Assembly: GCA_002703245.1 (NCBI GenBank)
Contig: NZTV01000006.1
Span: 1-64,000, forward strand
Direction: 5' to 3'
Source of the DNA: Microbacterium sp.
GTDB lineage: Bacteria; Actinomycetota; Actinomycetes; Actinomycetales; Microbacteriaceae
DNA length: 64,000 nucleotides
A program made the position numbers and the translations under genes. Numbering within the stretch: position 1 is the stretch's first letter; the number at the start of each line of letters is the position of its first letter. This document shows, piece after piece, positions 40,444 to 50,109 of the stretch. The notes under the pieces were generated by a model. That model saw only the letters and a list, made by a program, of their open reading frames with translations. It made no database searches and was not told the DNA's origin.

Positions 40444-41175
40444 ATGCGTCAATCAACCGTCCTTGAAGATTTGCGAGCGCGCATCGCGCGTATCGAGGGC
40501 GTAGGCGTTCAGCGCGAAGCGATCCCGTTCGGCATCGACGAACTGGATCAGCGATTGCCGGGCGGAGGCATTGCTGCAGGTGCTCTCCATGAAATGATGG
40601 GCAGTCCCGATCTCGCGGACGAGGCGAGTGCGACGGTCTTTCTGGCGGGAATCCTGGCGCGAATGGAAGGTCCCGTCTTCTGGTGCCTGCGCTGGCGCGA
40701 CCTGTTTGCCCCTGCCCTTCATCTCGCCGGTCTTCATCCAGATCGGGTCATCTATGTCGAGGCCGGCAGCGACACCAATGTCCTGCTCGCGATGGAGGAG
40801 TGCCTGCATCACCCTGGCATCGCCGGTGTGGTTGGCGAAGTCGGGAAATATTCGACTACTGCATCGAAGCGCCTGCAATTGGCGGCGGAAAGCTCGGGTG
40901 TAGCGGCCTTCGTGTTTCGTCGCGCGGCGAAGGCCGAACAGGTCGCCGAAGGGACGGCAGCGATGACACGCTGGCGGATCACCGCTTCACCAAGCGAAGA
41001 TCTCGGTCTGCCGAGCCTGGGTCGCCCTCGCTGGCATGTGGATTTGGAACGTGTGCGCGGTGGTAATCCGCACGCCTGGATCGTGGAGGCGTGCGATGCG
41101 ACGGGTCGTATCGCTCTTCCTGCCGCACTGGTCGACCGACCGGCTGCGGCGGAAGATCGCAAAATTGTCGCCTGA
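40444..41175 (+). CDS. imuA: ImuA (RecA/SulA-like mutasome protein)
   Basis: 243 residues. It has the ImuA pattern: AIPFGIDELDQRLPGGGIAAGALHEMMG near the N-terminus (seen at about residues 28-55), WCLRWRDLFAPALHLAGLHPDR, then EVGKYSTTASKRLQLAAESSG and a C-terminal RVRGGNPHAWIVE. ImuA is a RecA-related protein that supports error-prone translesion synthesis with ImuB and DnaE2. It lies just after the LexA box and overlaps imuB by 80 bases. Confidence 0.92.
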   Translation: MRQSTVLEDLRARIARIEGVGVQREAIPFGIDELDQRLPGGGIAAGALHEMMGSPDLADEASATVFLAGILARMEGPVFWCLRWRDLFAPALHLAGLHPDRVIYVEAGSDTNVLLAMEECLHHPGIAGVVGEVGKYSTTASKRLQLAAESSGVAAFVFRRAAKAEQVAEGTAAMTRWRITASPSEDLGLPSLGRPRWHVDLERVRGGNPHAWIVEACDATGRIALPAALVDRPAAAEDRKIVA

Positions 41176-42652
41176 GTGCCGTGACGGCCTGGTCCTTGAT
41201 CTTCCGCTGGTGACCGCGGTGCCCGATCACGGCAGGAAAGTCATTGCTGCCGTCGATGCCGAGGCTAAGGCGCTCGGTGTCCGCGTCGGCATGACCGTGA
41301 CGAAGGCCCGAGCGTTTGCCCCTGAATTGCAGGTCGTCGATGCCGACCCGGAGGGCGACCTGCAGGGACTTCGCGATCTCGCGCTATGGGCGGGCCGCCG
41401 ATACTCACCCTTCGTATCACCGGATGCGCCCGACGGAATCTGGCTCGACATCACCGGCTGCGCGGGTCTCTTTGGCACCGAGAAGGCGCTGCTCAAGGAT
41501 CTCCATCGCCGTGTTGCCGCGTCGGGGCTGGCTCTGCAGATCGCTGTGGCCGACACTGCAGGCTGCGCCCATGCCGTTGCGCGGCATGTACCCGCCGGCC
41601 GGCCGGTCACGATCGAGCCGGGCGGACACCGCACTGCCATTTCCATCCTGCCGATATCGGCGTTGCGATTGCCAGGACGCGAGGTCGAAGGTTTGCGCAA
41701 GCTCGGATTTGAGCGGATCGAACAGCTCATCGGTGCGCCGCGCGGCCCTCTCGCCAAACGGTTCGGCCGCGAATTGCATCGGCGGCTGGATCAGGCGCTC
41801 GGCTTCGTGCCCGAGCCGATCGAGCCGATCTACCCTGAACATCTGCCGCGGGCCCGTCGAGGTTTCATGGAGCCGATCGCGACACCTGAAGCCTTCGCCC
41901 AGGTGATCGGCGATCTCGTTGCCGATGTGGTGGGGCAGCTCACCTGTATCGGCAAGGGTGCTCGCCGATTGGATTGCTATTTCCACCGTGTGGACGGCCA
42001 CAATCAGGCGATCCGCATCGGGACCGCAACCGCATCCCGCGACGCAGGCCATCTCGCGAAATTGCTGTGCGCTAAGATCGAGACGGTCGAGCCAGGGCTT
42101 GGCATTGAGGCAATGACCCTCGTGACGCCGCTGGCTGACGCGCTCGCGGCCCAACAGGATGAAGGGTTGGAAAGCCCGCGACGCGGGCCGAACCTCGCCT
42201 CTCTGGTCGATGCGCTCGCCAACCGTTTTGGTCCACGGAGCCTGCATCGGGCGGCACCGCACGCGAGCAGTATGCCTGAGCGCTCGATCACCACGATGCC
42301 CGCCCTTGCGAAAGATAGCGGCGCCCAGTGGGACGATGACCTCCCTCGCCCCGCCCGCATGTTGGATCGACCCGAGCCAATCGACGTGGTCGCCCTGCTG
42401 CCAGACGATGCCCCTCGCCTCTTCGTGTGGCGTCGAAAGCGCTATCGGGTGACCCGAGGCGATGGTCCGGAACGCTTGCACGGCGAATGGTGGCGCGAGA
42501 GCGGCAATGAGGCCGACAAGGCGCTGATCGTCCGGGATTATTATCAGGTCGAGACCGAGACAGGCGGTCGGTACTGGCTGTTCCGGCTCGGTGACGGCGT
42601 AAATCCGGCTACGGGCACCATGCGCTGGTTCATCCACGGTGCGTTCGCATGA
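41096..42652 (+). CDS. imuB: ImuB (Y-family polymerase-like protein)
   Basis: 518 residues. N-terminal [16 protein letters not shown] and then the Y-family-like palm region with [18 protein letters not shown] and the thumb/finger part [28 protein letters not shown]; the C-terminus has [23 protein letters not shown]. ImuB lacks polymerase activity in characterised members and links DnaE2 to the beta clamp. The start at 41096 has GGAGGCGTGCG upstream, inside the end of imuA. The stop overlaps dnaE2 by 4 bases. Confidence 0.92.
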
Positions 42653-44745
42653 GCGAGGTCGACGCCAACTATGTCGAGCTGCAGGTTACGACGCACTTCA
42701 GCTTCCTGAGGGGCGCATCATCCCCCGAGGAGCTGTTCGCCGCGGCCGCATTGCTCGGATTGCCTGCTCTCGGCGTCGTTGATCGAGGATCGGTCGCCGG
42801 CATCGTCCGGGCCTGGGATGCCGAACGGACCACCGGCGTTCGTGCCATCATCGGATGCAGGATCGATCTGAGCGACGGCACGGCGCTACTGCTCTATCCG
42901 ACGGATCGCGCAGCCTATGGCCGAATGTGCCGACTGCTCAGCATCGGCAAAGAACGCGGCGGCAAGGGAGCCTGTCATCTCGACTGGTCGGATGTCGAAC
43001 AATGGAATGACGGGCTCATCGCGATCCTGAGTCCTGACCGGGCAGACGTCGGCACCGAGGCCGCCCTTGCGCGGACGAAACGGATTTTCGCCGACCGTGC
43101 CTATCTGGCTCTGACGATCCGGCGGCGACCGAAAGATGCGATCCGGCTGCGTGATCTCGCGAACCTGGCGGCTGCGGCTCGCGTTCCTACGGTCGCGACC
43201 AATGACGTGCTCTACCACGCGGCGGAGCGCCACATGCTGCAGGATGTTGTCACTTGCATCCGGGAGAAATGCACGATCGACGAATTGGGCGCTCGGCGCG
43301 AGCGGTTCGCCGATCGGCATCTCAAGACCGGCCAGGAAATGGAGCGGCTGTTCCGTCGCTATCTCAAGGATGCGTCGCCCGTCTCTCGCACGCTCGAGAT
43401 CGCAGCGCGGTGCAGTTTCAGCCTTGAGGAGCTCCGTTACCAATATCCGGATGAGATCAATGTGCCCGGCCGGACGCCGCAGGAGGAGCTGGAGCGGCTG
43501 ACCTGGGAGAAAGCCCCCGACCGCTATCCCGAGGGGGTCGATGACAAGGTGCGCTCGCAACTGGTGCACGAACTGAAGCTCATCGCGGACCTTGAGTATG
43601 CGCCCTATTTCCTGACCGTCCATTCCATCGTGACCGAAGCGCGGCGGCGCGAGATTATCTGCCAGGGACGTGGGTCGGCCGCGAACAGTGCCGTTTGCTA
43701 CGTGCTGGGCATCACCTCGATCGATCCGGTGCGCTCGGAATTGCTGTTCGAGCGTTTCGTGTCGGCCGAGCGGCGCGAGCCGCCCGATATCGACGTCGAT
43801 TTCGAGCATGAGCGCCGGGAGGAAGTGATCCAGTGGATTTATGAGACTTATGGGCGGACGCACTCGGCGCTGACGGCCGTCGTGACCCGCTATCGCGCGC
43901 GGGGCGCGGTCCGCGAAGTCGGCAAGGCGCTCGGCCTGAGCGAGGACATGACGGCGGGTCTGGCCGGGTCCGTCTGGGGATGGAGCCAGGATGGCGTCGA
44001 GGAAAAACACGCGGAAGAGCTCAATCTGGACCTCGCCGACCGGCGCCTGGTGCTGACCCTGGAATTGGCCCGTCAGCTCATCAATACGCCGCGCCATTTG
44101 TCGCAGCATCCTGGCGGATTCGTGCTGACGCGCGATCGGCTTGACGAACTGGTGCCCATCGAGCCGGCTGCGATGGAAGATCGACAGGTGATCGAATGGG
44201 ACAAAGACGATATCGATCTCCTGGGCTTCATGAAGGTCGATGTCCTGGCGCTGGGCATGTTGTCGTGCATGCGGCGGGCGTTCGAGTTCATGGAGAATGA
44301 CAAGGGCCTGAAGCTCGATCTCGCGACCATCCCCGCCGAGGATCCGGCGACCTACGCGATGATCCGCAAGGCCGATACCTTGGGTGTCTTCCAGATCGAG
44401 AGCCGCGCACAGATGGCGTCCATTCCGTTGATGGCGCCGCGCACCTTCTATGATCTGGTCATTCAGGTGGCGATCGTGCGCCCCGGGCCGATCCAGGGCG
44501 ATATGGTCCACCCTTATCGTCGCCGGCGCAACGGCGAGGAGGCCGTCACCTATCCGACCGAGGAACTGCGGCGCGTGCTCGAGAAGACCTTGGGGGTGCC
44601 GCTGTTTCAGGAGCAGGCGATGCGCGTGGCCATCGAATGCGCTGGCTTCACACCGAGCGAAGCGGATCTGCTTCGGCGCGCGATGGCGACGTTCAAGCTT
44701 GTCCGCCGTCAGCGCCAATGGCACAGATTTGAGGTTGTGATGTAA
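42649..44745 (+). pseudogene. dnaE2: dnaE2 (ImuC), 3' end lost at an IS3-family insertion
   Basis: Residues 1-683 read as an error-prone DNA polymerase III alpha chain: PHP start ([21 protein letters not shown]), [42 protein letters not shown], and [19 protein letters not shown]. The homology stops at RRAMATFK, where the IS starts at 44700; the last 15 residues come from the IS. Normal DnaE2 has about 1050-1100 residues, so the fingers end, beta-binding and OB regions are missing. The protein is very likely inactive, which would disable the mutasome. The missing 3' part is not found after the IS. Confidence 0.9.
44700..44728 (+). repeat. Left terminal inverted repeat of the IS
   Basis: Begins TGTCCGCCGTCAG and ends GGCACAGAT. 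It pairs with 46200-46228 (21 of 29 positions), fixing the left end of the element inside dnaE2. Confidence 0.8.
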
Positions 44746-44784
44746 GGAGGATTTGGGCTTCGTCGTAGTGACGAAGGAACGAAG

Positions 44785-45177
44785 ATGAAGCCCAAATCCT
44801 CAAGCGTAAAATCGGCCCGCAAACCCAAGGCGTCGGCCGAACAGGTGGTGAAGGATATCCGGCGCGCGACACGCCGGCATTTCTCGGCGGAGGACAAGAT
44901 CCGCGTGGTTCTGGAGGGCTTGCGCGGCGATGACAGCATCGCGGAGCTGTGCCGCAAGGAGGGCATTGCCCAGGGCTTGTATTATACTTGGTCAAAGGAG
45001 TTCATGGAGGCCGGGAAGCGTCGGCTGGCGGGCGACACCGCCCGTGCCGCGACGAGCGGCGAGGTACAGGATCTGCGCCGTGAGGCGCGTGCCCTGAAGG
45101 AGGCCGTCGCCGACCTCACGCTCGAAAACCGGCTGCTGAAAAAAAGCATGATCGCGGATGGGGGAGACCCCGAATGA
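44785..45177 (+). CDS. IS3-family transposase OrfA
   Basis: 130 residues with a basic start, a helix-turn-helix of the transposase_8 type (RHFSAEDKIRVVLEGLRGD, SIAELCRKEGIAQGLYYTW) and a C-terminal leucine-zipper-like coiled coil (LRREARALKEAVADLTLENR). It binds the IS ends. A run of seven A followed by G near its end (45139-45146) would allow a -1 frameshift into orfB to make the OrfAB transposase; no stop codon lies in the orfB frame between that site and the orfB ATG. Confidence 0.92.
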   Translation: MKPKSSSVKSARKPKASAEQVVKDIRRATRRHFSAEDKIRVVLEGLRGDDSIAELCRKEGIAQGLYYTWSKEFMEAGKRRLAGDTARAATSGEVQDLRREARALKEAVADLTLENRLLKKSMIADGGDPE

Positions 45178-46154
45178 GGTATCCGGGATCCGAGAAGCTG
45201 GAGATCATCCGCATCGTCGAGCAGTCGCACCTGCCGGCGAAGCGGACCCTCGACCAGTTGGGCGTCGCGCGGCGGACCTTCTACCGATGGTATGATCGCT
45301 ATCTCGAAGGCGGCCCCGAGGCGCTGGAGGATCGTCCTTCCGCGCCGAGCCGGGTCTGGAACCGCCTCCCCGGCGCCATTCAGGACCAGATCGTCGAGAT
45401 GGCACTGGAGCAGTCCGATCTGTCGCCCCGCGAACTGGCGGTGCGCTTCACCGATGAGAAGGACTATTTCGTCTCGGAATCAACGGTCTACCGCCTGCTC
45501 AAGGCGCATGACCTGATCACCAGCCCGGCCTTCGTCGTGGTCAAGGCGGCCGACGAGTTCCATCGCAAGACCAGCCGCCCGAACGAGATGTGGCAGACCG
45601 ATTTCACCTACTTCAAGATCATCGGCTGGGGATGGATGTACCTCTCCACCGTGCTCGACGATTTCTCGCGCTACATCATCGCCTGGAAGCTGTGCACCAC
45701 GATGCGGGCCGAGGACGTGACCGACACGCTGCAACTCGCGCTCGAAGCCTCAGGCTGCGACCACGCCACCGTCAGGCACAAACCAAAGCTGCTCAGCGAC
45801 AACGGACCGAGCTACATCGCCGGCGAACTCGCCGACTGGATCAAAGCCCATGACATGAGCCATGTTCGCGGCGCTCCGCTACATCCCCAGACCCAGGGCA
45901 AGATCGAGCGCTGGCACCAGACCCTGAAAAACCGCATCCTGCTGGAGCACTACTTCCTGCCTGGCGATCTCGAACGGCAGGTCGAGGCCTTCGTCGAGCA
46001 TTATAACCATCGCCGCTATCACGAGAGCCTCGACAACGTGACACCGGCCGACGCCTATTTCGGCAGGGCCGCCGCCATTATCGAACGGAGGAAACGCATC
46101 AAGCGAAAGACCATCGAACAGCGACGCTTGCTTCACCGCAAGCTCGCCGCCTAA
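45174..46154 (+). CDS. IS3-family transposase OrfB (DDE integrase domain)
   Basis: 326 residues: an HTH_21-like N-terminal part, then the rve integrase core with the DDE triad in WQTDFTYFK, LLSDNGPSYI and QGKIERWHQTLK, ending with HYNHRRYHESLDNVTPAD. It starts with an ATGA overlap on orfA but is probably mainly made as the OrfAB fusion by -1 frameshifting. It is full length, so the IS may still be active. Confidence 0.93.
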   Translation: MRYPGSEKLEIIRIVEQSHLPAKRTLDQLGVARRTFYRWYDRYLEGGPEALEDRPSAPSRVWNRLPGAIQDQIVEMALEQSDLSPRELAVRFTDEKDYFVSESTVYRLLKAHDLITSPAFVVVKAADEFHRKTSRPNEMWQTDFTYFKIIGWGWMYLSTVLDDFSRYIIAWKLCTTMRAEDVTDTLQLALEASGCDHATVRHKPKLLSDNGPSYIAGELADWIKAHDMSHVRGAPLHPQTQGKIERWHQTLKNRILLEHYFLPGDLERQVEAFVEHYNHRRYHESLDNVTPADAYFGRAAAIIERRKRIKRKTIEQRRLLHRKLAA

Positions 46155-46199
46155 ACATCAACCCCAGACGAGGCCCGATCTCCTCTTCTCTGCGCAACC

Positions 46200-46228
46200 A
46201 TCTGCGCCAAATGTCCCGACGACGGACA
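46200..46228 (-). repeat. Right terminal inverted repeat of the IS
   Basis: On the + strand it begins ATCTGCGCC and ends GACGACGGACA. The last base of the element is 46228; the SRAP remnant starts at the next base. Confidence 0.8.
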
Positions 46229-46672
46229 ATGCAAGAAATGGAAATGGTCGAGGCCCGGTGGGGCTCCAATCCACGCTTCAGCGGCGGGGCCTCCTTCCGC
46301 TTCGTGCGCTCGGAGGGCCAGATCTTCCCCAGCCAGCGCTGTCTGGTGCCCGCCTCGGAATTCCACATGACCGTTAGCGGCGGCAAGCAGTATCGGGTGC
46401 GGCTCGAAGACGGCAATTTCTTCTATCTCGCGGCGATCTGGGAGCCGGCCATGGCAGAGTGGCCCCTGTCCTTCCGGGTCATCACCGTCGCGGCCAATCC
46501 TGAAGTCAGCCACTATCAGGATCGACACGATGCCATCATCCTGCGCCGGCAACGCATGCAATGGCTCGACCACCTGCTCCCAGAGATCGACCTTCTCGAA
46601 ACACCGCCGGCCCGCACCTTCATCGTCGAGGAAATAAACGGCGGCCCGAGGCAGAAGAGGCTTGCCGTCTAG
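46229..46672 (+). pseudogene. SRAP (YedK/HMCES-like) gene lacking its 5' end
   Basis: About 147 residues of an SOS-response-associated peptidase domain: EARWGSNPRF, QIFPSQRCLVPASEFH, FFYLAAIWEPAM, FRVITVAANPEV and WLDHLLPEIDLLE. SRAP proteins crosslink abasic sites in single-stranded DNA with Cys2 directly after the initiator Met. That N-terminal segment is missing: the frame begins exactly at the IS right end and the upstream codons belong to the IS. The frame is otherwise intact, so the remnant may be translated from ATG at 46229 but should not have the crosslinking activity. Confidence 0.75.
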
Positions 46673-48300
46673 TCCGGGATCTGGATTTCCATCGCCGCCA
46701 TCTGAGCGATCAGCTCTGCCCTGGTGATCCGAACATCAAAGCGCCATTCAAGGAGCCGCACACCGTGGCGAGCCAGCAGCGCGCGCTTTTTCTCGTCGCG
46801 GAATTGCGTGAGCTTGAACCCCTCTTCGCCGCCGAAGAGCGTCACGGGCGCGTAGTGCTGCTGCCCCTGATACTCGATGGCGAGGCCCAGCTCCGGCACA
46901 TGGATATCGACGGACTGCATGCCGAGGAACGCCGGGCGCCATTGATGGACCGCGGAGGGCCATAGGGTTCGAACCAGATCGAGCAGCGCCACCTCGGACA
47001 CCCAGCCCCGTCCGATCTCGGGAATCGACCTCTCGCGGCGGAACGCCTCTTCGGCAGCGACCATGGCGGTCGCAAAGAACGCGGATGCCCCGGTGTCGGC
47101 GGCCCCGATGTTGATGGAGAAAATCCGGCCGCGCCGCGCACCGTGGTTCGTGAACTGCGCCATATGACGCCGATAGGCGGCCCAATCCGAAGCGGGCGGC
47201 ATGGGCGGTATCATGGTCGACCCGAAATCCGGCCGAAGCCTGATCATTTCCTCCAGGACAGGCGGCTCCAGCGTGAATTGCGCATCGAGATGGCCCAGGA
47301 ATGCCTCGAATTCCTCCAGCAGACGCCCCGCAATGAGCGATGATTCCGCATGTTTGCGCGCCAGTACGCGAATATCCTGCGCGCGCAGCGGCGATCCTGT
47401 CAGGAATCTGAGATAGATGACCTCGTCGAACAGAGGCTCACGATCGCGGCCGGGCACCGCCTCGACCAGCGTAAGTGCCTCGTCGAGCCGATCAGCCTGT
47501 GTGAGTTCAAGAACGCGCTGCCAATGCGGATCGGGATCCCAAGGTTCGCCATCGACATCCGGAAGATCACCTGGGAGGCCGGTGCCGTCAGCGCCACGCC
47601 ATTGGTCGCCAAGCAGGCGTGCCTGCAATCCGTAACTCCGGGCCCGTTGATTGTCTTCCCATACGCGGGCAGTCGGCAAGGCTGGATCGAGGGGATTGGG
47701 CGTCCAGGACTGACCTTGGGCGATTCCATCGGGCCGCATCACATAGCCGATGTCGAATCCCGCGGCGGCGTAATCAGCCATGGCGAGATCGCCGATAGCT
47801 TCAACGATGCGCTCGAACAGCCGGACCTGATCCTGACGGACCCCGATCGAGAGCAGGACGCGGCCACGCGCCGAGATCTGCCGGAAGATGCCCGGCGCAT
47901 GGACGGAAAGCTTAACGGCGCGTTGCCGCCGGATCCCCGGCCCTTCGAGGAAGTGAATGCGATGGGTAATGTCGTCGGGGAAGTCGGGATAGCTCAACGG
48001 CACCGGCTCCACCGCCTTGGGCACCCGCTTCTTGGGCGGCGCCTCCGGTCCATATTCTGTCAGCAGCTCACCGCAGAGCGCCGATAGTCGAGTGAAATGA
48101 ACGGCCGTTGCCGAGCCTGCCGCGCGTTTCCCTGCGAGCGTCGCGTAGAGTTTCTGCCACTTTGCCAGGTCCTTTCGATAGAATTCGCGGGACATCCGGC
48201 TGCGCAACGTATCCTCATGGAGCTTGGCTGCCTCACGGAACGCCTGAAGACCGGCATCTCCCTCTTCCGGTGACGGGGGCTTGAGCTCCACAGCGCGCAC
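46669..48300 (-). CDS. PD-(D/E)XK-like nuclease protein, partner of TIR-like gene
   Basis: 543 residues from a GTG at 48300, 4 bases after the stop of the TIR-like gene (a GTG at 48291 is also possible). The first 400 residues have no domain I recognise. The C-terminal 100 residues look like a restriction-endonuclease fold: SVDIHVPELGLAIEYQGQQHY (Asp465, Glu476) followed by FRDEKKRALLARHGVRLLEW (Asp502, Lys505), the 'EYxGxxH...D..K' form of the Vsr-like/PD-(D/E)XK group. The usual Lys after the Glu is Gln. As a two-gene unit with a TIR-like protein this suggests a defence function, with this protein as a DNA-cutting or sensing part. It ends convergently with the SRAP remnant (4-base overlap). 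Confidence 0.65.
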   Translation of the reverse strand: MRAVELKPPSPEEGDAGLQAFREAAKLHEDTLRSRMSREFYRKDLAKWQKLYATLAGKRAAGSATAVHFTRLSALCGELLTEYGPEAPPKKRVPKAVEPVPLSYPDFPDDITHRIHFLEGPGIRRQRAVKLSVHAPGIFRQISARGRVLLSIGVRQDQVRLFERIVEAIGDLAMADYAAAGFDIGYVMRPDGIAQGQSWTPNPLDPALPTARVWEDNQRARSYGLQARLLGDQWRGADGTGLPGDLPDVDGEPWDPDPHWQRVLELTQADRLDEALTLVEAVPGRDREPLFDEVIYLRFLTGSPLRAQDIRVLARKHAESSLIAGRLLEEFEAFLGHLDAQFTLEPPVLEEMIRLRPDFGSTMIPPMPPASDWAAYRRHMAQFTNHGARRGRIFSINIGAADTGASAFFATAMVAAEEAFRRERSIPEIGRGWVSEVALLDLVRTLWPSAVHQWRPAFLGMQSVDIHVPELGLAIEYQGQQHYAPVTLFGGEEGFKLTQFRDEKKRALLARHGVRLLEWRFDVRITRAELIAQMAAMEIQIPD

Positions 48301-48304
48301 CCGG

Positions 48305-49963
48305 TCAGTCGAACGACGGCGAGCCGTCGGCCCAGCCCGACGCCTGCCAGAGGATATTGAATTGCTCCTGCAGCTGCGGCTGCATCGGCGCGGCAAGATC
48401 GGTCACCTGAAGCTCAGGCAGGAACAGCTCGGGCTTTCGGATCTTGCGACCGCCACCGCGGGCGCGCGTCAACTGGACGTCTTCCACTCCCCGGAATGCG
48501 ATGGAAACGAGGCCGGAACCGGCCAGGCCCACGTCGGCGAGCACGGCGGCAAGACGCTCGAGATGGGCGGCGATCGATGCTTCCAGCTCGCGACCATTCA
48601 CCAGGATCTCGGGATCATCGTCGATCCGGGCGCCGATCATCGCCTCGAATTCAATCAGGCCGGGTCGAACAAGGCGCGTGCGCCACCGGGTCTCCGGGTT
48701 ATTTTCGGTCTGAATGAGCGGCAGGCCATAGCTCCACCATTGGCGCTCATCCGAATCTGACTGAACCCGGACCTGGCTGTCAGGCGGAAAGCGGAGCGCC
48801 GCAGCGAGGACGGTCTTTGGATCGAGAGCCGGCCGATCCATCGCAGCGAGCGGCACAATGCGCAGCGTCATGCTGGGCATGGCGACGATCTCGGGAAGCC
48901 CTCCTCGCATCCGGTCCGCCGCCAGCTCTGAAATCGCGGTCCGCGCGGCCTCCCAGCGGGGATCCACCTGCGGCGCCGTTGGCGCCGGCGGCGCGACACG
49001 AATTCGGGAGCGCCCAACCTTCTCGAACGCATCTATCGCGCCGATCAGCGTTCCGGCGCGCGCATTGAGTTCCCGGATCGCATCCAGGGTGACCTGCTGC
49101 GTGCCGTGCCGCACGTCATAGTCGGTCTTCGGCCAGACCATGTTGGGGTTCCGGTCCATCACATGGATGCGCTCATAGACCAGCTCCATGAGAGAGGTGT
49201 TCGCCGCGCGAAGCGCCATGGCGGCCTCCTGTAGCGCGGTGTCCTCGAAATCGAAGGCAGCGCCCGCCCAGGTAGCAGCCATATCATCGAGGGGATCGAG
49301 TGCCTTGCGCGGATAGGGCGTCCCGAAATTATGCTCGCGCAGGAACTGGCGCAGCAGCTCCGGGATTTGCTGGCGATACCGCTGCAACAGCTCAACATCA
49401 TGAGGGTGAGGTTCGGCCGGCGGCGCAGCCGCCATAAGAACCTCGTCGTCGAGAATCAGGCGAAGAGCGCTCTCCAGATCCTTCTGAAGCCCTGCCCGCG
49501 CCGCCTGGCGCTCCTCGTCGGTCGCGTCGGCCGGACAGTGGAAGAGGATCGGCCGTTTGAAATGGGTGAGGTCGAACGGAAGAGGATGCTCGTCGGGATG
49601 GCCCATCGCTGTGTTCATGACGCCGATCATCCTGCCCCACCCGCGCGATTTTAGCGCCCAGCCATGCTCGAGCAGGACATTGGGGTTGGGCGAGAGCTGG
49701 CCCTTGGCGCGCGTGGCAACGTGCGTGAGGTCGGACAGGAAGGCGACCGCCCGGTCGATCTTTCCGAAGATGGTGTCCGCGAGCGGCGGCATGCCCGGCA
49801 CATTCACAGTGTCGCGATCGGCGCGAAGCTCACGATCGGCGGGATCAACGTCGGCGTCCGCATTGACGGTTCGAATGGCGCGGTCCAGCGCCCACTGAAT
49901 CAAGCCGCGACCGATCCGGTTCTCCGTGTCGCTTTGCCAGGAATAGAAGATTTGGTGCGGCAT
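48305..49963 (-). CDS. TIR-like domain protein, putative defence gene
   Basis: 552 residues. The first 145 residues form a TIR-like or nucleotide-binding-like domain: HQIFYSWQSDTENRIGRGLI, then RADRDTVNVPGMPPLADTIF, VAFLSDLTHV, and NPNVLLEHGWALKSRGWGRM with Glu99 where TIR NADases have their catalytic Glu. Many bacterial proteins with FYSWQSD/NPNVLxELGxAL patterns sit in defence loci. The remaining 400 residues are unrecognised, helical then beta-rich, and may sense a trigger. ATG at 49963; weak ribosome binding site. It is the first gene of a two-gene unit with the nuclease-like gene. NAD cleavage is inference. Confidence 0.7.
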   Translation of the reverse strand: MPHQIFYSWQSDTENRIGRGLIQWALDRAIRTVNADADVDPADRELRADRDTVNVPGMPPLADTIFGKIDRAVAFLSDLTHVATRAKGQLSPNPNVLLEHGWALKSRGWGRMIGVMNTAMGHPDEHPLPFDLTHFKRPILFHCPADATDEERQAARAGLQKDLESALRLILDDEVLMAAAPPAEPHPHDVELLQRYRQQIPELLRQFLREHNFGTPYPRKALDPLDDMAATWAGAAFDFEDTALQEAAMALRAANTSLMELVYERIHVMDRNPNMVWPKTDYDVRHGTQQVTLDAIRELNARAGTLIGAIDAFEKVGRSRIRVAPPAPTAPQVDPRWEAARTAISELAADRMRGGLPEIVAMPSMTLRIVPLAAMDRPALDPKTVLAAALRFPPDSQVRVQSDSDERQWWSYGLPLIQTENNPETRWRTRLVRPGLIEFEAMIGARIDDDPEILVNGRELEASIAAHLERLAAVLADVGLAGSGLVSIAFRGVEDVQLTRARGGGRKIRKPELFLPELQVTDLAAPMQPQLQEQFNILWQASGWADGSPSFD

Positions 49964-50056: not shown

Positions 50057-50109
50057 TGTCATCAATGACACTCTACCAGGCGTTTCGGGGTAAAGTGTCA
50101 TTGATGGCA
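50057..50109. promoter_or_regulatory. Operator-like inverted repeat before the TIR-like gene
   Basis: Arms at 50057-50075 and 50091-50109 match as inverted repeats at 17 of 19 positions (core ATCAATGACACT / AGTGTCATTGAT is perfect) with a 15-base centre. Each arm also contains a smaller TGTCA-N4-TGACA-like dyad. It lies about 95-145 bases before the TIR-like ATG, in the only gap upstream of that unit, so it probably controls it. No regulator gene sits next to it. Confidence 0.6.

Follow-up and report, generated by a model that had tools for sequence, protein, structure and literature searches.

A gene pair encoding a TIR-like protein and a predicted Vsr-type nuclease on a sphingomonad conjugative-plasmid backbone: a candidate defence cassette

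Several described prokaryotic proteins and systems resemble, each in part, a pair of adjacent genes (hereafter A and B) that we have analysed in a window of 64,000 nucleotides, i.e., positions 1 to 64,000 (forward strand) of contig NZTV01000006.1 from the Microbacterium sp. assembly GCA_002703245.1. Swarozyc is a DUF4062 NADase, and the DUF4062 proteins reportedly act as phage-activated NADases with a C-terminal accessory domain that senses the phage portal, the sensing domain of Swarozyc being of the helix-turn-helix (HTH)/winged type (PMC13174449). For SfSTING, a bacterial TIR-STING protein, the reported NADase site includes S10, R78, N80 and E84 (PMC9402430). SPARTA (TIR-APAZ plus short Argonaute) and Thoeris (ThsA/ThsB) are systems with a TIR component, and on the nuclease side the nearest enzymes are Vsr and the EDxHD homing endonuclease I-Bth0305I.

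In this work, we have found that A begins with a TIR-like domain and B ends with a nuclease domain of the Vsr/EDxHD type. With moderate confidence, we read the pair as a defence cassette borne by mobile elements, in which a TIR NADase and a sensor-nuclease would act as two stacked effectors against phages or rival elements. This reading draws on the folds, the catalytic-type residues, the operon-like layout, the recurrence of the pair, purifying selection and module swapping. The genes and their parts are as follows.

48305..49963, minus strand: gene A, 552 amino acids, ATG start; TIR-like domain, middle segment and C-terminal module
49448..49963, minus strand: A residues 1-172, TIR-like domain with Glu99 in NPNVLLEHGWAL; fold match and invariant Glu99
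48929..49447, minus strand: A residues 173-345, middle segment shared by the A orthologues, largely helical; missing from the proteins that join TIR and C-module directly (L008, L087 and L088); low model confidence
48308..48928, minus strand: A residues 346-552, C-terminal module (C-module); recurs behind other N-terminal domains
46669..48291, minus strand: gene B, 540 amino acids from GTG 48291, or 543 from GTG 48300
47041..48291, minus strand: N-terminal part of B (to residue 420 in the numbering from 48300); no family found
46672..47040, minus strand: C-terminal Vsr/EDxHD-type nuclease domain of B, with Glu436, Asp465, Glu476, His482, Asp502 and Lys505

A shares with TIR-STING and CAP12/PycTIR (PF10137) the TIR fold and the N-x-x-x-E spacing, but no STING part is recognised in it. 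With Swarozyc, A has in common a TIR-like, putative NADase domain at the N-terminus and an accessory domain at the C-terminus, and a relative in Caulobacter henricii carries the C-module behind a DUF4062-like domain; on the other hand, A itself has no DUF4062 match, and the sensing domain described for Swarozyc is HTH/winged. Like SPARTA, A-B is a two-gene unit with an N-terminal TIR domain, whereas B carries a Vsr-type nuclease and none of 18 B sequences has an Argonaute family match, the fold of the B N-terminus being uncertain. B agrees with Vsr and I-Bth0305I in the fold of its last 110 residues, but has another 420 residues that belong to no family known. As in Thoeris, a TIR gene stands beside an effector-type gene, but no SIR2, SLOG or Macro domain is recognised in B. 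As for CBASS and Pycsar, a Pfam scan of 10 neighbouring frames gave no cyclase match; three of the 10, including the two just upstream of A, matched nothing. Neither protein has a Pfam, NCBIfam or PADLOC match above cut-off, and the PDB searched by sequence returned just sub-cut-off noise. The suspicion in the initial annotation that the system is undescribed thus holds for the PADLOC set, and among the matches listed from the open-licence literature none describes the pair, which is weak evidence of absence. In its working, A-B would resemble TIR-based abortive-infection effectors and nuclease defences, and none of the named two-gene systems examined is shown to fit.

The two long leftward genes are real open reading frames on the minus strand, and since they have full-length relatives and low ratios of non-synonymous to synonymous substitution rate (dN/dS; A, 0.07-0.11; B, 0.08-0.12; seven paired comparisons with unsaturated dS), they are more than chance. 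Both genes are under purifying selection. The gap of 4 bases that was initially proposed between them is correct if B starts at GTG 48300. However, in seven other paired loci B starts with 'M.LKPP' or similar, 7-13 bases past the stop of A, and because of this junction and the conserved start we favour GTG 48291, which makes the gap 13 bases. Residue numbers of B are nevertheless counted here from GTG 48300, and those of the 18-sequence alignment run 3 lower.

The TIR-like domain with Glu99, which had been noticed from the letters of the DNA, is confirmed by fold and conservation. The best fold match for the model of residues 1-172 is the TIR domain of SfSTING (7un8; VIA-align Z 13.9, root-mean-square deviation (rmsd) 2.3, 131 residues aligned), followed at lower rank by flavodoxin-fold rows at Z 11.7 and the SPARTA TIR-APAZ protein (8qlp) at Z 11.2; the Foldseek match of the fold has an E value of 1.7e-4. 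The predicted local distance difference test (pLDDT) score is 66-93 across the TIR part, in blocks of ten. Glu99 is invariant in all 21 aligned sequences (the window's included), as are Trp9, Gln10, Asp78, Asn93, Asn95, Gly101, Ala103 and Pro-Phe-Asp 129-131. The spacing from Asn95 to Glu99 is that from N80 to E84 in the SfSTING NADase site (PMC9402430). In addition, a weak profile match to PycTIR (E 0.16) places Glu99 opposite the Glu of NVHLE. The family PF10137 (CAP12-PCTIR) has no match at E<=1 to A or to its relative L003, and the other six of the seven TIR relatives scanned score 14.4-23.7 bits, under the cut-off of 24.7. Because these six relatives score near but below the cut-off and A and L003 lack a match, we place the A N-terminus as TIR-like in the CAP12/PycTIR neighbourhood, and not as a member of PF10137. 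Its Glu99 would be the residue through which A cleaves NAD+.

About 400 residues of each protein had been left unassigned. For B this still holds, since its N-terminal part has no family, but in A they resolve into the helical middle segment and the recurring C-module. By tblastn and profile, the C-module is seen in other contexts as well. In Sinorhizobium (L008) and two viral contigs (L087, L088) it follows a TIR domain with no middle segment in between, in Caulobacter FWC26 (L010) it follows an HNH-type domain (HNH_2 at 20.8 bits, the cut-off being 21), and in C. henricii (L009) it follows the DUF4062-like domain, which also matches the PADLOC candidate PDC-S60 with E 5.5e-22. Plasmid searches with the L009 module and with the L087 module returned an identical 10 records each. 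By profile comparison, the C-module is matched to the C-terminal parts of the TIR proteins L084, L085 and L094 (hhalign E 1.8e-5, 181 columns), and to those of L079-L082 and L096 (E 8.4e-4, 82 columns), compared with E 0.33-0.49 for three other tails; it is thus a remote relative of the C-termini of further TIR proteins. Identity of the C-module with the C-terminal part of AlbA_2/Schlafen-type proteins was considered as well. Because of the module swapping and the analogy with the DUF4062 proteins, the C-module is probably a sensor or adaptor, and the likely sensor of A. A relation of the middle segment to the helical tails of L083, L101, L103 and L104 was also considered, but the match is too weak (hhalign E 0.19); tblastn pieces of A reach residue 259 in L101 and 246 in L104.

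Relatives of the pair have defence-type neighbours: a Shedu-type gene adjoins L008, a TIR gene stands at L009, a SIR2 protein is encoded downstream of B in L036, and AbiE genes lie at L082. On the Caulobacter plasmid of L009 (2718-5654), a canonical TIR gene is followed without a gap by the gene of the DUF4062-like domain and C-module, i.e., two NADase-type domains are adjacent. In Ruegeria (L082:2252-5266), an AbiEi/AbiEii toxin-antitoxin pair shares its last 4 bases with the gene of a TIR relative of A, as if the latter were the third gene of an AbiE system.

The nuclease of B had been described as a PD-(D/E)XK-like core. A restriction-endonuclease-like fold is indeed what the model gives, and the type can be stated more exactly: the last 110 residues match Vsr (1cw0; Z 9.0, rmsd 3.2, 106 aligned), NGO0050 (3hrl; Z 8.6) and I-Bth0305I (3r3p; Z 8.2, rmsd 3.9, 96 aligned). 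Two mitoribosomal proteins also match this fold (Z 9.3 and 8.8), after which the list drops to Z 6.3. The re-aligned rows with Z>=8 for the B model all fall on the nuclease part, but with models this weak the lack of other folds is no evidence against them. Searched with Foldseek alone, the B model gave nothing in the PDB at E<=0.001; against viral proteins it gave 13 matches, some named restriction or homing endonuclease. Asp465, Glu476, Asp502 and Lys505 had been picked out correctly, and together with Glu436, Gln478 and His482 they are invariant both in an alignment of 6 B sequences and in one of 18. Glu436, Asp465, His482 and Asp502 presumably correspond to the Glu-Asp-x-His-Asp motif. Within the PD-(D/E)XK-like folds, the modelled B nuclease is closest to the Vsr/EDxHD enzymes, and it would be expected to cleave DNA.

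The N-terminal 420 residues of B have no Pfam, NCBIfam or PADLOC model above cut-off. Among the 18 B members, a weak PF01035 match is seen in two (Pfam, E 0.035 at best), and a PADLOC scan gave one weak match, to PDC-S02 (E 0.021). It has no clear match to the N-termini of other proteins sharing the nuclease: for 10 of 13 such proteins, namely those containing the string EYQG, the best blastp E is 0.041 and the hhalign E about 0.6. The nuclease domain also occurs in stand-alone proteins of about 390-410 amino acids (L107, L108, L110-L112) from Acinetobacter, Paracoccus, Rhizobium, Arthrobacter and a haloarchaeon, and the N-termini of L107, L111 and L112 have no clear kinship to that of B. From these sequences, the B-type nuclease appears to be a mobile nuclease module. 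Among its sequence relatives are homing endonucleases of phages, besides many proteins without a name, and the named relatives are what speaks for taking B as a selfish homing-type nuclease with A as its passenger or immunity protein. However, the flanks differ between B sites, Pfam finds no DNA-binding repeat in B beyond the weak PF01035 match, and the long N-terminus is kept at >=55% identity over distant loci, so that we consider such an origin very unlikely.

The pair recurs elsewhere. A scan of genome contigs, queried with the N-terminal part of B, found 22 loci with B, and A is directly upstream in 12 of them (L015-L025 and L034, where B is incomplete at the contig end). At the other 10 (L026-L033, L035, L036) A was not found; L035 is degraded, and L028, with just 360 bases upstream, gives no full test. 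Full-length B is present in 10 plasmid records, five of them with A beside it, and A was not found in the three that were fetched of the remaining five. A is covered at >=80% in six plasmid records, of which the sixth is from Rhizobium etli and has no B within 5 kb of A; R. ruizarguesonis has a broken A. Among 42 viral-contig (IMG/VR) loci, two carry full-length B (L037:6001-7659 and L038:6001-7599), and A was not found in the stretches fetched; the surroundings look prophage-like when the frames are judged by eye, and B is perhaps cargo there. As a single-sequence query, A had no match in viral contigs, and it had none in phage records. Searches for A found its own genome and one weak place (G001, E 7e-4, residues 148-226) among 58 relatives' genomes, and its own genome only among 396 genomes of the order; among 394 genomes of the class, the A C-module and the B N-terminal part were each found only in their own genome. 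Overall, the pair is rare. Its carriers are chiefly plasmids of bacteria from soil and water, and most of the pairs lie on a single conjugative-plasmid backbone of sphingomonads. In L026 (6384-9617), where A is absent, B lies 13 bases behind a 234-amino-acid gene without Pfam family, which itself overlaps a metallo-beta-lactamase-fold gene; the nuclease may have another partner here.

The tree of B has 22 rows; near-identical copies (L012, L014-L017, L019, L022) and the incomplete copies L034 and L035 were omitted before the paired and unpaired labels were counted. At least two changes of the paired label are needed. Three B sequences without A (L026, L027, L036) fall together with paired Bs under one fork (support 96/95), outside of which the group of the window's B branches off. 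Therefore, A has been lost or gained more than once, and the pair is real but facultative.

These observations bear on whether A and B form a single pathway. In a Thoeris-like version, A would sense infection and make an ADP-ribose-type messenger, the N-terminus of B would bind it, and the nuclease would be switched on. The tight order of TIR gene and nuclease gene, the conserved TIR active-site residues and the large part of B without known family are compatible with it. Nevertheless, 10 of the 22 genome loci and the two viral contigs have B but no A, the clade without A is nested inside the paired clade, and no messenger-binding domain is recognised in B, the models being too poor to exclude one. 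We rate this version as unlikely, and likewise improbable is the broader proposal of one new immune pathway, where the TIR product or the C-module would activate the Vsr/EDxHD-type nuclease via a messenger- or partner-binding N-terminus of B; if true, conjugative plasmids would be spreading a system that leads from TIR to the cutting of DNA. A might signal to B, but the loci with B only make this less likely. For the same reason, together with the R. etli A, the initial suggestion that one gene senses and the other acts is weakened in so far as it implied an obligate unit.

At the other extreme, A and B may be independent genes that came by descent to lie in a common plasmid slot, without joint function. 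Relaxase-side DNA is common to the window and 11 of the 12 paired genome loci, so the co-conservation of A and B is partly hitch-hiking; each partner is also found without the other, and the repeated label changes on the B tree agree with independence. However, the Glycocaulis pair (L023) has no flanking DNA in common with the window, its neighbours looking chromosomal by eye, and the 7-13-base junction is kept in all eight loci compared, the window included. As a single backbone carries almost all of the pairs, the two genes may simply have been inherited together with no joint function, though we regard this as somewhat doubtful. A toxin-antitoxin or plasmid-maintenance module would fit the plasmid location and the two-gene layout, but both genes are large and enzyme-like, neither resembles a small antitoxin, and each is also present alone; this explanation is hardly probable.

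Under the favoured reading, that of a defence cassette with two stacked effectors, A-B would be a small operon, found chiefly on conjugative plasmids of sphingomonads, that protects plasmid and host from phages or rival mobile elements. A would be a one-protein immune effector, of which the C-module, possibly with the middle segment, senses a trigger derived from the invader; the TIR domain would then cleave NAD+ via Glu99. B would be a second sensor-effector, the N-terminal 420 residues recognising a target and the Vsr-type domain then cutting nucleic acid. The two would thus form stacked layers of defence, and not one locked complex. The defence role, the triggers and both enzymatic activities are what we infer from the evidence above. 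Several observations weigh against this reading. The Pfam-matched neighbours in the window are SOS, IS (insertion sequence) and transfer genes, and no defence island is seen; PADLOC matched neither protein; the models are weak, with a mean pLDDT of 67 (low confidence) for the whole chain of A and 64 for B; the DUF4062-like match of L009, at 16.2 bits, is below the Pfam cut-off of 24.7; and most paired loci have the relaxase-side DNA in common. The B loci without A and the R. etli A without B weigh against mutual dependence.

The surroundings of the pair are as initially described, with an IS-scarred SOS locus on one side and transfer genes on the other. By Pfam scan of neighbouring frames, a partial SRAP gene, an IS and the dnaE2/imuB locus lie on the lower-coordinate side. 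On the higher-coordinate side, small frames that Pfam does not match come first, and beyond them lie the genes for a relaxase of the TrwC type and a coupling protein of the TrwB/TraD type. The plasmid-borne imuB/dnaE2-type mutagenesis locus extends over 40444-46672; its DnaE2-like frame stops just ahead of a two-ORF (open reading frame) IS transposase, and the SRAP gene past the IS covers only positions 92-182 of a 214-position profile. The conjugative-plasmid backbone that carries the window is common to other sphingomonads. One further feature lies upstream of A.

50057..50109, no strand: inverted repeat with arms of 21 nt (TGACACTnTACC) around a loop of 11 nt, located some 94-146 bp upstream of A

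The repeat is also present in L012, L015-L021 and L025, its arms differing partly in L020 and L021, and was not found in L003, L011, L023 and L024. It is possibly an operator or a cassette edge.

If the defence reading is right, A-B would add a TIR and nuclease cassette on conjugative plasmids to the candidates for defence systems. The C-module is a candidate for a sensor shared across TIR, DUF4062-like and HNH-type proteins, so that a trigger found for one such protein could carry over to the others. Moreover, as the partners occur both alone and together, they may offer a natural test of the cooperation between stacked effectors.

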